Part shown: piece after piece, positions 2,839 to 6,477 of the stretch
Numbering within the stretch: the first letter of the stretch is position 1
Layout of the letters: each line of letters opens with the position of its first letter
IMG/VR virus record: IMGVR_UViG_3300050821_002914
Span: 1 to 26,787 of that record
Length of the DNA stretch: 26,787 nucleotides
Direction: 5' to 3' (one strand)
DNA from: a virus
Made by a program: the position numbers and the translations under genes
The notes under the pieces: model-generated
Told to the model about the DNA's origin: nothing
Databases searched by the model: none
What the model saw: only the letters and a program-made list of their open reading frames with translations

Positions 2839-4091
2839 TGCACGGAGCAAGGCCCATGCGCTCGACGCGGCGGCTACAGAACTTGAACACCGGACTGCCG
2901 CGGTGGTGGTCCATCACGAATAAAACGGACACCGGCGAACCGACACTCGTCAGCATTTACGACGAAATCGGATTTTACGGCGTCCCGGCCGGCGAGTTCC
3001 TCGCCGAACTCTCCGGCATCAACGGCGACCTCGACGTCCACATCAACTCCCCGGGCGGCGATGTCTTCGATGCCGTGGCGATCTACAATAGCCTGAAGGC
3101 GCGGCGCGGCACCGTCGCCATCACCATCGACGGACTGGCCGCCTCAGCCGCGTCGTTCATCGCCCAGGCGGCGTCCCCCGGGAAGCTGGAGATGGCCCCG
3201 TTCTCCACGATGATGATCCACGACGGGTTCGCCGCCGGCATCGGCAACGCCGCCGACATGCGCGACCTCGCCGGCCAACTCGACGACGCCAGCGACAACA
3301 TCGCCGGGATCTACGCCGCCCGCACCGGCAAACCCGCCGACTACTGGCGGGCCAAGATGCGCGCCACCACCTGGTACAAGGACGTCGAGGCCGTCGCCGA
3401 CGGACTAGCCGACCGGATCCGCGGCCAGGACGGCGACGTCCGCGCCACCTGGGACATGTCCGTGTTCAACGCCGACAGCCCCCCGGCCGGCGAAGACAAA
3501 GACCTCGGCGACGGCTGGGTCATGGGCCCCGACGGCAAAGCCCGCTACGACCCCGACGGCGACGGCGACGACGACTCCACCGCCGAAGGCGACACCGACC
3601 ACTCCCACTTCGACGAGGACGGCAAGCAGACCAAGGCCATCCCGCCCAAGCCCGGATCGGCCAAGGCGAAGCCGCCGGAGAAGACCGCGACGGCCGCCGG
3701 CACCCCCGTGCTGCGCGCGGCCACCGACGCCGCCGTCGACAACTCCGCCTGGGACGCCTCCAAGGCCTGGCACAACGGCACCGAAGCCGAAGACCCGGCC
3801 GCGTTCTATGAGGGCATCTGCGCCGGAAAGAAATCCGGCGACCCCTCCACCCAGGCCGCATGGGCGCTGCCCTACAAATACCACCCGTCCGACCCGCCGA
3901 ACGCCAACGGGGTCCGCGCGGCACTGGCCCGGCTGTCCTCCACCCAGGGCCTCATCAACAGGGCCGAGGCCGGAGACACCCTGGAAGCAGCCATGAAGAA
4001 GATCAACCCGGACTATGAGCCGGGCGACCAGATAGACGGCGGCCTGCTCTCCGCAGTGCTGACCTCGGGCCTGAGAGGGGCTGGCAAGTGA
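2838..4091 (+). CDS. ClpP-like capsid maturation protease (S14 type)
   Basis: A 417-residue protein that should process the capsid precursor. The N-terminal 200 residues are ClpP-like: INSPGGDVFDA (residues 70-80, substrate-binding strand), GLAASAAS with the presumed nucleophile S103, and MIHDG with the presumed catalytic H128. The third catalytic residue would be an Asp in the region around residues 175-195. An acidic, Asp/Gly-rich linker (about residues 215-265, containing DPDGDGDDD) leads to a C-terminal domain (about 295-400) with a WHNG...AAWALPYKYHP pattern that I recall from other actinophage proteases; its role is not known to me. AGGGAGG at 2826-2832 lies 5 bases before the ATG and supports this start over the ATG at 2856. 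It overlaps the portal by 1 base and the capsid gene by 4. Confidence 0.88.
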   Translation: MHGARPMRSTRRLQNLNTGLPRWWSITNKTDTGEPTLVSIYDEIGFYGVPAGEFLAELSGINGDLDVHINSPGGDVFDAVAIYNSLKARRGTVAITIDGLAASAASFIAQAASPGKLEMAPFSTMMIHDGFAAGIGNAADMRDLAGQLDDASDNIAGIYAARTGKPADYWRAKMRATTWYKDVEAVADGLADRIRGQDGDVRATWDMSVFNADSPPAGEDKDLGDGWVMGPDGKARYDPDGDGDDDSTAEGDTDHSHFDEDGKQTKAIPPKPGSAKAKPPEKTATAAGTPVLRAATDAAVDNSAWDASKAWHNGTEAEDPAAFYEGICAGKKSGDPSTQAAWALPYKYHPSDPPNANGVRAALARLSSTQGLINRAEAGDTLEAAMKKINPDYEPGDQIDGGLLSAVLTSGLRGAGK

Positions 4092-5521
4092 GCGCGAAGA
4101 TGAAGGTCCCCACCGACTCCGCCGGAATCATGGAGCTGCTCAACGACGAGACGGCGCTCCAGGCCCGGTTCTCCCGCGAGGCGGTCAAGAACGGCGAAAC
4201 CAAGGAATTCCTCGACGCCTACGCCAAGATGTACGTGAAGACGAACCCCGACTCCGTGGACGACGTCCGCGAGCAGGTCGAGTCCGTCATCTTCGACCTG
4301 GTGCGCGACAACGGCGCCAAGCGCGGCCCGAAGCTCGGCGTCAGCGTCGCCAACGGCTCCCCGCAGCTGTCCATCGACGGCACCGCCCGCGTCTCCAAGG
4401 GCCGCGGCGCCGTATACAACAAGACGTCCATGGGCGCGCAGCTCGAACGGGCGTACAAGTCGGCCGATCGGTTCAACTCGATCGGCGAGTACTGCAAGGC
4501 GATCTTCGAGCTGCGTTCGCCGTCCACGCGGGCCGACCGCGACGAGGTCATCCGCAAGCTCGACAACGTCCGCACCTTCCAGAACTCGTTCGGGTCCGAG
4601 GAGCCCGGTGCCGGCGGATTCCTCGTCCCGGAGATCATGCGCTCGGAGCTTTTCCAGCTCGCCCTGGAGGAGTCGATCGTCCGCAACCGGGCGACGGTCA
4701 TCCCCATGTCGACGCTGCGGGTGCCGATCCCCACCGTCGACGACACCAGCCACGCCACGTCCGTGTTCGGCGGCATCGTCTTCTACTGGACCGAAGAAGC
4801 TGCAGCCCTCACCGAATCCAACGCCACCTTCGGACGCGTCACCCTCGACGCGAAGAAGCTCACCGGGTTCTTCAAAGTCCCCGCAGAGCTCCTCGACGAC
4901 GCCCCCGCATTCGGTGCCTGGTTCGACGAGCGCGTCCCCGCCGGCCTCGCCTGGTTCGAAGACATCGCGTTCATGACCGAAACCGGCGCCGGCACCCCCG
5001 AGGGTTTCATCAACAGCCCGGCGTCCATCCAAGTCACCAAAGAAACCGGACAGTCCACCGGCACCATCGTCTGGGAGAACATCGTCAAGATGTACTCCCG
5101 GATGCTCCCCACCAGCCTCAAGACCGCCGTGTGGATCGCGAGCATCGACACCTTCCCGCAGCTGGCCACCATGGCCCTGTCCGTGGGCACCGGCGGCGGC
5201 CCCGTCTGGATCGGCGGCTGGTCCCAGCCCGGCAGCGAGCTGCCCCCGATGACGATCCTCGGACGCCCGGTCATCTTCACCGAGAAGTGCCCCGCGCTGT
5301 CCACGACCGGCGACATCAACTTCGTCGACCTGTCGTACTACCTCATCGGCGACCGGCAGCAAGTGCGCGTGGACTCCAGCGAGCACTTCCTGTTCCAGAA
5401 TAACCAAGTGGCCTACCGCCTCATATCCAGAGTCGATGGTCGACCGTGGATCCAAAGCGCCTTGACGCCTCACAATGGCGGACCCTCGTTGAGTCCGTTC
5501 GTGCAAATCGCTACCAGGTAG
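4088..5521 (+). CDS. Major capsid protein, HK97 fold
   Basis: A 477-residue protein that builds the icosahedral shell. The HK97-fold body begins near residue 174 with GAGGFLVPEIMRSELF, a hallmark of the family. It continues through TLRVPIPTVDD and ends with RVDGRPW...SPFV. Residues 1-170 are charged and helical, consistent with an N-terminal scaffolding (delta) domain removed by the upstream protease. GTG is the start (GTGA overlap with the protease stop). AGAGGGG at 4074-4080 sits 7 bases upstream, while the ATG at 4100 has no such site. The last 40 codons (5399-5518) differ sharply in codon use: 26 of 40 end in G/C, against 39 of 40 in the preceding 40 codons, by hand count. The capsid family motif is still intact in this tract. 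Confidence 0.92.
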   Translation: MSAKMKVPTDSAGIMELLNDETALQARFSREAVKNGETKEFLDAYAKMYVKTNPDSVDDVREQVESVIFDLVRDNGAKRGPKLGVSVANGSPQLSIDGTARVSKGRGAVYNKTSMGAQLERAYKSADRFNSIGEYCKAIFELRSPSTRADRDEVIRKLDNVRTFQNSFGSEEPGAGGFLVPEIMRSELFQLALEESIVRNRATVIPMSTLRVPIPTVDDTSHATSVFGGIVFYWTEEAAALTESNATFGRVTLDAKKLTGFFKVPAELLDDAPAFGAWFDERVPAGLAWFEDIAFMTETGAGTPEGFINSPASIQVTKETGQSTGTIVWENIVKMYSRMLPTSLKTAVWIASIDTFPQLATMALSVGTGGGPVWIGGWSQPGSELPPMTILGRPVIFTEKCPALSTTGDINFVDLSYYLIGDRQQVRVDSSEHFLFQNNQVAYRLISRVDGRPWIQSALTPHNGGPSLSPFVQIATR

Positions 5522-5538
5522 CGACGCCATTATCTAGT

Positions 5539-5551
5539 GTAAACTGGGTGC
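5539..5551 (+). promoter_or_regulatory. Possible -10 element for a leaderless HNH transcript
   Basis: Between the capsid stop and the HNH ATG (5552) there is no purine-rich ribosome binding site. An AT-rich patch holds TAGTGT (5535-5540) and TAAACT (5540-5545), both of the TANNNT form. A -10 at 5540-5545 would place the transcript start at about 5551-5553, on the ATG itself. No convincing -35 is visible. Leaderless mRNAs are common in actinobacteria, but this call rests on one hexamer. Confidence 0.25.
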
Positions 5552-6190
5552 ATGGCTGGAAGTAGAAAGTGCGACCCAGGGTGCACATGCAAGAAACACG
5601 ATCGACGTCTCGATCTCACGGAGGAGGAACGCGTTGAACGTCATCGGCAGCAGAGCCGTGAAGGGATGCGGCGTTTCTACGGCTCGGGGATCTGCCCGTC
5701 GTGCGGAGGGAAGAAGGTCCCGCAGTCCGAGCTGTGCCAGCAGTGCAGGGGCAACGCTCACACGGGACTCCTCCCCGAGGAGAAGCGCAGGATCGCGGCG
5801 GAATATCAGCGTGCCCGCCGGGCGGCTGACCCGGAGGCCGCGCGAGCAAAGGCCCGGGGGTACAACCAGAAGAATGGGCGCCGCTATCACATCAAGAGCA
5901 AGTTCGGCATCACGCTCGACGACTGGGATCGGCTACTCGTGGGCCAGTCCGGCCGATGCTATTTGTGTGAGAAGCCTCTCGGGGCCGGGCGCACGGATAT
6001 CCACATCGACCATGACCATGCATGCTGCCCGGGGCGTAAGTCCTGTGGCAAATGCATTCGCGGGCTGGCCTGCCAGAAATGCAACCAGGGCGTCGGCCAG
6101 TTTGGAGATGACCCGCAGCTCATGCGGAAAGTCGCCGACAACCTGGAAGCGGCCAACCGTCGTCTTCGCGAGCAGGAAGTGACCTCATGA
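5552..6190 (+). CDS. Endonuclease VII-type HNH endonuclease, probably a homing enzyme
   Basis: A 212-residue protein of the recombination endonuclease VII family. The core is C136-x2-C139, then H151-I-D-H-D-H156 (the metal-binding/catalytic stretch), then C174-x2-C177-N, followed by GVGQFGDDPQLMRK, typical of the family end. Upstream are a second C48-x2-C51...C62-x2-C65 zinc knuckle and an N-terminal CDPGCTCKKH motif, which probably help DNA binding. T4 endonuclease VII resolves branched DNA, but free-standing copies inside actinophage structural operons usually behave as mobile homing endonucleases. Codons such as AGA, CGA, CCA and ACA are far more frequent here than in the upstream capsid genes, which supports separate acquisition. 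It starts 30 bases after the capsid stop with no visible ribosome binding site. Its stop overlaps the next gene (ATGA). Confidence 0.88.
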   Translation: MAGSRKCDPGCTCKKHDRRLDLTEEERVERHRQQSREGMRRFYGSGICPSCGGKKVPQSELCQQCRGNAHTGLLPEEKRRIAAEYQRARRAADPEAARAKARGYNQKNGRRYHIKSKFGITLDDWDRLLVGQSGRCYLCEKPLGAGRTDIHIDHDHACCPGRKSCGKCIRGLACQKCNQGVGQFGDDPQLMRKVADNLEAANRRLREQEVTS

Positions 6191-6477
6191 CGAACCAGCG
6201 TCAGATCCAGATCGGCGAGCTCACTCCGAAGCTCGTCAAGGAAGCCCTGAAGAAGGGCGAACGGATCATCGTGTTCGACGGCGGCGAGCCGATCGCTCTA
6301 ATCACCGGAGCCGCCGCGGAGCTCGGGCGCCACAAGGACTTCTTCGTCCACTACCCGCACGACCCCGCGGAGTGCTTCAACACCTGCTGGCGGCACAACG
6401 GGAAGACCGACGGCGCCGAGCAGGATGAGGCGCTGCCAGCCGAGTCTGAACCGGATCCCGAGCGGATCACCGCCTGA
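6187..6477 (+). CDS. Small protein with Phd/YefM-like N-terminus
   Basis: A 96-residue protein starting in an ATGA overlap with the HNH stop. Residues 7-45 follow the pattern of Phd/YefM antitoxins: a short strand (IQIGEL), a helix (TPKLVKEALKKG), then a beta hairpin (ERIIVFDGGEPIALIT). Compare the family form 'I..L...L..V..GE.V.V...G.PVA.L'. The remainder (HKDFFVHYPHDPAECFNTCW, then an acidic tail) is not familiar. No toxin-like gene is adjacent, so if the fold is right it is an orphan, perhaps a repurposed DNA-binding or protein-binding module. The position right after the homing-type nuclease suggests it may have travelled with it, or may be an old member of the capsid operon. Family assignment is by pattern only. 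Confidence 0.6.
   Translation: MTNQRQIQIGELTPKLVKEALKKGERIIVFDGGEPIALITGAAAELGRHKDFFVHYPHDPAECFNTCWRHNGKTDGAEQDEALPAESEPDPERITA

Follow-up and report, generated by a model that had tools for sequence, protein, structure and literature searches.

An endonuclease VII-type gene exchanged as one block with a recoded capsid gene end in phages of soil actinobacteria

The capsid-endonuclease locus

The DNA analysed here, referred to as the window, is a 26.8-kb viral record (26,787 nt) from IMG/VR. It carries an actinophage-like genome in which genes for the portal, the protease and the major capsid protein are followed by an endonuclease VII-type gene and then by small conserved genes. In a nucleotide search of isolate phages, Dagobah was the sole isolate that matched the capsid gene. 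The features of the locus are given below; relatives are denoted by L numbers, and those bearing the endonuclease gene are called carriers.

4088..5521, + strand: major capsid protein gene, HK97-type (PF05065; Pfam Phage_capsid 1.7e-51; PHROG major head protein), the start being that of the GTG open reading frame
5399..5521, + strand: recoded 3' end of the capsid gene (40 codons plus stop), with low GC3 and conserved protein; a proposed co-conversion tract, based on the change point, GC3, a drop in identity and the tie to endonuclease-bearing relatives
5522..5551, + strand: intergenic region in which TAAACT at 5540-5545 resembles a promoter element and precedes the ATG by 6 nt, in a leaderless arrangement, based on recurrence of TANNNT among the loci
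5552..6190, + strand: free-standing endonuclease VII-type (DHHRN) gene, a predicted homing endonuclease (PF02945, 1.9e-18; PHROG endonuclease VII; PDB profile match)
5570..5599, + strand: N-terminal CxxxCxCxxH module (C7, C11, C13, H16), possibly binding zinc or DNA, with invariant columns in 17 proteins
5888..6148, + strand: catalytic domain, residues 113-199 (Pfam match; DHHRN invariant in 17 relatives)
6008-6013, 6017-6019, 6059-6061 and 6083-6085, + strand: the DHHRN set, D153 H154, H156, R170 and N178, respectively
6187..6477, + strand: conserved next gene, from tblastn of its protein against relatives

In the endonuclease-free relative L004, tblastn places the start of this next gene only 7 nt past the capsid stop. 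The endonuclease gene is thus an optional gene between two conserved ones, and positions 5522-6186 constitute an insertion in the window. An overlapping reading frame was rejected, given that the endonuclease frame opens only 21 nt past the capsid stop in the window.

The neighbouring gene had been recognised as an endonuclease VII gene in the earlier note, and the Endonuclease_7 profile match listed above agrees with this. The residues D153, H154, H156, R170 and N178, together with C136, C139, C174 and C177, are invariant in 17 relatives. Profile matches to PDB entries include T4 endonuclease VII (4e-8) and Hpy99I (1e-4), and the predicted structure (mean pLDDT 82) has T4 endonuclease VII as its best, albeit weak, Foldseek match (E 0.005). 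The motif is C-terminal, with the Pfam match covering residues 113-199 of 212, which is the position found in the homing endonuclease clade and not the N-terminal position found in resolvases. At the N-terminus the window protein carries one CxxxCxCxxH module and relatives carry 1-4 copies; these modules plausibly serve in DNA binding, and their number may set DNA specificity. About four tandem modules of the form CxxGCxCxxH are present in the endonucleases of L085 (3980-4615) and L087 (3983-4687).

In 18 of 23 loci (1.9 expected) the start codon of the endonuclease gene is preceded at 4-8 nt by a TANNNT element, which suggests that the gene may have its own leaderless promoter, a reading drawn from actinobacterial promoters. 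In L280, a GC-rich hairpin followed by T's (ggcccctccccgtgaggggccttt) occurs just past the endonuclease stop, at about 5075, and the unit may therefore carry its own terminator.

Codon usage at the capsid gene end

The capsid gene comprises 478 codons with a mean GC3 of 0.91. An earlier hand count, by which 39 of the 40 codons at 5279-5398 end in G or C and only 26 of the 40 at 5399-5518, was confirmed, and a scan of the whole capsid gene placed the best single change point at exactly 5399, where a break near 5398 had been claimed; its likelihood was reached by none of 2000 codon shuffles. With a GC3 of 0.69 the tail lies close to the endonuclease gene overall (0.74), whereas the capsid body stands at 0.92. 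The low GC3 extends across the 30-nt gap and into roughly the first 30 endonuclease codons (GC3 0.50), so that the stretch has its centre at the junction; within the endonuclease gene, GC3 is about 0.5 at the 5' end (5552-5640) and 0.7-0.9 in the remainder. The predicted fall in identity to relatives at about 5398 also occurs, at 5399: identity to seven relatives, taken per 60 nt, mostly lies at 0.8-0.95 over 5159-5398 and at 0.58-0.75 after 5399.

Capsid relatives were taken from IMG/VR, endonuclease relatives were found with profiles, and near-duplicates were removed. The resulting set contained 131 capsid genes, 25 followed directly by an endonuclease gene and 106 lacking it; L084, a member of the first group whose endonuclease is 462 nt away, was excluded from later calculations. 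The GC3 change in the last 40 codons averaged -0.224 with the endonuclease (25 genes) versus -0.019 without it (106 genes; p=1.2e-11), a smaller first set having yielded p=4e-8 for the same contrast, and the last 40 codons of endonuclease-free capsids retain a GC3 of about 0.9. To allow for non-independence among the relatives, the comparison was repeated on disjoint nearest pairs, and the carrier (HNH+) member showed the larger drop in 21 of 24 HNH+/HNH- pairs (Wilcoxon p=8e-6).

The outcome named in the earlier note as contrary to its reading, namely a low-GC3 end shared by endonuclease-free relatives or by the whole family, was looked for and not found, since L004, L005, L007 and L008 keep the high-GC3 tail codons predicted for them, the exception among close relatives being L003. 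Across the family a drop occurs in about 9% of endonuclease-free capsids, including L003, and the endonuclease-free phages with low tails include L003, L012, L014, L259, L271, L279, L304 and L337. Little drop is seen in some carriers (L021, L093, L186 and L018). Gene loss as the source of low tails lacking the endonuclease was rejected as a general explanation, and remains suggestive only, given that nearness to carriers was not predictive (rho -0.09, p=0.33). L003 carries a recoded tail and no endonuclease gene, with 51 nt from the capsid stop to the next gene, and has in common with the window the codons GGA CCC TCN TTG AGT CCG TTC GTN CAA. Its tail is consistent with endonuclease loss and retention of the tract, and both L003 and L344 may represent tracts persisting after loss of the element. 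Directly behind two other low-GC3 tails lacking the endonuclease are genes for an unknown protein (L259, +12 to +642) and a probable methyltransferase (L271, +15 to +576), which may be later occupants of the site or alternative cargo there.

The presence of the endonuclease is patchy on the capsid tree, requiring 19 gains or losses, at least 15 of them forced by well-supported branches (shuffled mean 21.4), and endonuclease similarity shows no significant correlation with capsid similarity (Mantel 0.13, p=0.16). A scan of bacterial genomes for the endonuclease revealed no further case behind this capsid. Endonuclease VII-type genes also occur near genes of other families in L188, L189, L191, L198 and L199, with a last-40-codon GC3 below that of the gene body in a comparison confined to these endonuclease-bearing loci, and the low-GC3 footprint may extend beyond capsid genes.

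Conserved protein, scrambled codons and block exchange

The codon change had been described as mostly synonymous with the protein kept, and the relatives bear this out. Between the carrier L100 and the endonuclease-free L026 the tail proteins are identical over 41 residues, whereas synonymous codon identity falls from 0.77 in the body to 0.31 in the tail. Where body synonymous identity is 0.75-0.80, the tail value is 0.76 in endonuclease-free pairs versus 0.37 in mixed pairs (4 pairs), and larger bins of mixed pairs gave 0.38-0.42. Over 18 nearest pairs, carrier tails match their nearest relatives in 216 of 548 synonymous codons, with 208 expected from random carrier-tail usage, and thus they hold no detectable synonymous memory of vertical descent. 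Active avoidance of native codons, which would give fewer matches than random, was not supported by the same figures.

The amino acids of the tail correlate with the capsid body (Mantel rho 0.69) but not with the endonuclease (-0.03). Together with the saturation of synonymous sites, this renders a single recent import from a distant donor too simple, and donor import, by which tail amino acids should follow the endonuclease, was retained only as exchange among related capsids; either transfers occurred mainly between phages with such capsids, whose homology permits repair, or the tail changed in place after arriving. A conserved functional DNA site common to carrier tails was also rejected, as codon sharing exceeds shuffles weakly (z 0.6-3.1) and not generally, and so was the proposal that the target is the most conserved DNA of the gene, since the RVDGRPW window ranks 9th of 418 and not first.

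Two pairs of relatives reveal exchange of the tail and endonuclease as a block. L103 and L104 have endonucleases that are 82% identical and capsids that are only 67% identical; nucleotide identity stands at about 63-67% across the capsid body, rises to 85% over the final 96 nt, is 84% for the endonuclease gene and drops to 61% past it. L279 and L280 have capsid bodies that are 96.5% identical, with 36 of 429 codons differing, 35 of them synonymously, whereas 21 of the last 37 codons differ, 19 synonymously. The endonuclease gene is present only in L280, L279 having about 67 nt at that place, and past this site identity is 96.0% for the remaining 594 bp. Since the L279 tail is itself lowish in GC3 (31 of 40 codons versus 39 of 40 before it), this pair illustrates block exchange and not a native tail beside a recoded one. 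In two further pairs near-identical capsids are followed by different endonucleases, and divergence is confined to the block or begins with it: for the window and L002 identity is 89% in the body, 66% in the tail and 54% in the endonuclease, and for L082 and L280 it is 88%, 65% and 56%, respectively, and 81% after the endonuclease.

Change-point estimates of tract length range from 13 to 97 codons, many being 29-42 and the weakest change points being unsure; such variable length is as expected for resection and repair and does not fit a fixed site. A codon block CAT AAY GGC AGC TCA recurs in carriers across capsid clades. A pattern ending in CAY AAY GGC AGC TCA, chosen post hoc from carrier tails, was found in 12 stretches among 2.9 million viral contigs, 10 of them on contigs already known as endonuclease carriers and 2 not. 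In many phages of soil actinobacteria the gene for the cutter and the recoded capsid end are exchanged as one block.

The earlier note had proposed a homing co-conversion tract. The tie between tail and endonuclease across the family and the block exchange in two pairs lend this proposal partial support, and co-conversion of flanking sequence is seen comparatively in the relatives L103/L104 and L279/L280. The expected match of the window's own tract to a donor phage with the same endonuclease was not obtained among the relatives compared: the nearest endonuclease is that of L082 (59-65% amino acid identity), yet the L082 tail is different (0.15 synonymous identity).

Proposed mechanism and relation to known systems

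We consider it probable that the locus was shaped by intronless homing of a gene for a free-standing DHHRN (endonuclease VII-motif) nuclease, and that the recoded capsid tail at 5399-5521 is its co-conversion tract. During mixed infection, we infer, a phage without the endonuclease would have its capsid gene cut by the enzyme near the 3' end. Repair templated by the carrier would bring in the endonuclease gene and the capsid sequence beside it, mostly some 30-85 codons, the presumed direction of transfer being from carrier to non-carrier. The tail would then be an endonuclease-linked allele that specifies nearly the same capsid C-terminus with other codons. A natural reading of the recoding is that it makes the tail uncuttable and would leave carriers immune, and the transferred piece would functionally replace the end of this essential gene damaged by the cut. 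On the best account, the endonuclease-linked allele has existed long enough for synonymous saturation and still encodes nearly the same protein. A more far-reaching version, which we hold tentatively and regard as somewhat less than an even prospect, is a natural counterpart of synthetic home-and-rescue drives, in which the endonuclease attacks the capsid 3' end and carries a synonymously recoded copy that confers immunity and at the same time patches the break, the codons being scrambled as endonucleases and capsid tails evolve in an arms race.

Other explanations have to be weighed against homing with co-conversion. The tail could have been recoded in place, by a locally raised mutation rate due to mutagenic repair where the DNA next to the endonuclease is cut or nicked again and again, under purifying selection on the protein and with no import. 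The agreement of tail amino acids with the capsid body and the saturated synonymous sites accord with this, and polymorphism is raised beside mobile introns, for which mutagenic repair has been proposed (PMC5378118). We nevertheless judge it unlikely, because L103 and L104 have the tail and endonuclease, and not the capsid body, in common, because the sharp block between 96% flanks in L279 and L280 would be hard to produce by mutation in the time available, and because carriers of different capsid clades share the codon block described above. Mutagenic repair beside the endonuclease may still contribute to the change of the tail. Ordinary mosaic recombination could instead move a cassette of tail and endonuclease, the enzyme being a resolvase or passenger and not the driver. 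Phage genomes are mosaic, and block exchange alone is no proof of cutting; yet a homing enzyme accords better with the protein family, with the constant position behind a single essential gene and with the patchy presence, and a C-terminal endonuclease VII motif falls on the homing side of the tree (PMC6083498), so that we give this explanation a rather low probability.

That the codon change is regulatory, with promoter or translation signals for the endonuclease located in the capsid 3' end, appears very improbable. The recurrent TANNNT element accords with it and T4 endonuclease promoters can sit within the preceding gene, at its 3' end (PMC2988022), but such a promoter needs about 40 nt, whereas most tracts are far longer with variable starts, and the tails of close carriers are mostly without shared sequence. 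A codon choice that is relaxed at the capsid gene end throughout the family has nothing in its favour beyond the observation in a single gene, and is refuted by the endonuclease-free capsids to the point of being barely conceivable.

Homing endonucleases drag flanking DNA along with them, and the evidence for this comes mostly from crosses or single introns. Here, at least 15 separate gains or losses on the capsid tree are accompanied by the same footprint at one essential-gene site, readable from codon usage alone. This offers a route to active or past homing sites in uncultured phages when no donor is at hand, and a case in which protection by synonymous recoding can be tested. Moreover, a mobile gene can leave its scar as unusual codon usage at the end of the gene next to it, a caution for capsid-based phage phylogenies.

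The mechanism is known and the recurrent recoded tail of an essential gene appears undescribed; a literature search, with most subscription papers outside its reach, yielded no report of a recurrent synonymously recoded essential-gene end beside such an enzyme. Among the closest known systems is F-CphI of cyanophage S-PM2, a proven free-standing homing endonuclease located beside a conserved gene, with its endonuclease VII motif at the C-terminus and the same D, H, H, R and N residues (PMC6083498). The target of F-CphI is psbA, and a group I intron protects the genome that encodes it, whereas here no intron is seen and the end of the neighbouring gene is recoded. Free-standing phage endonucleases are known to co-convert flanking sequence, and T4 SegF, SegG and MobE, which lie by essential genes and undergo intronless homing with marker exclusion, resemble our system in this respect (PMC2988022). 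They differ in being GIY-YIG or HNH enzymes of T-even phages, for which we found no description of a recurrent recoded gene end in many lineages.

The co-conversion tracts of the plant mitochondrial cox1 intron likewise consist of foreign differences beside a mobile endonuclease element and can outlive that element (PMC3192709); they are intron-borne and mitochondrial, whereas the element described here is free-standing and most synonymous codons of its tract differ. HEG islands also place homing genes near essential phage genes, including capsid genes, and mark boundaries of exchange (PMC10448857), but they exceed 10 kb and are bracketed by GIY-YIG or HNH genes, whereas the present unit is below 1 kb and carries an endonuclease VII-type gene. 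A parallel to the putative immunity is provided by PhiPA3 gp210, a homing endonuclease that attacks gp178, an essential gene of the rival phage PhiKZ, and against which 17 engineered silent changes protected gp178 (PMC11620839). In that system the protection was engineered, whereas in the capsid genes considered here comparable recoding has arisen naturally.
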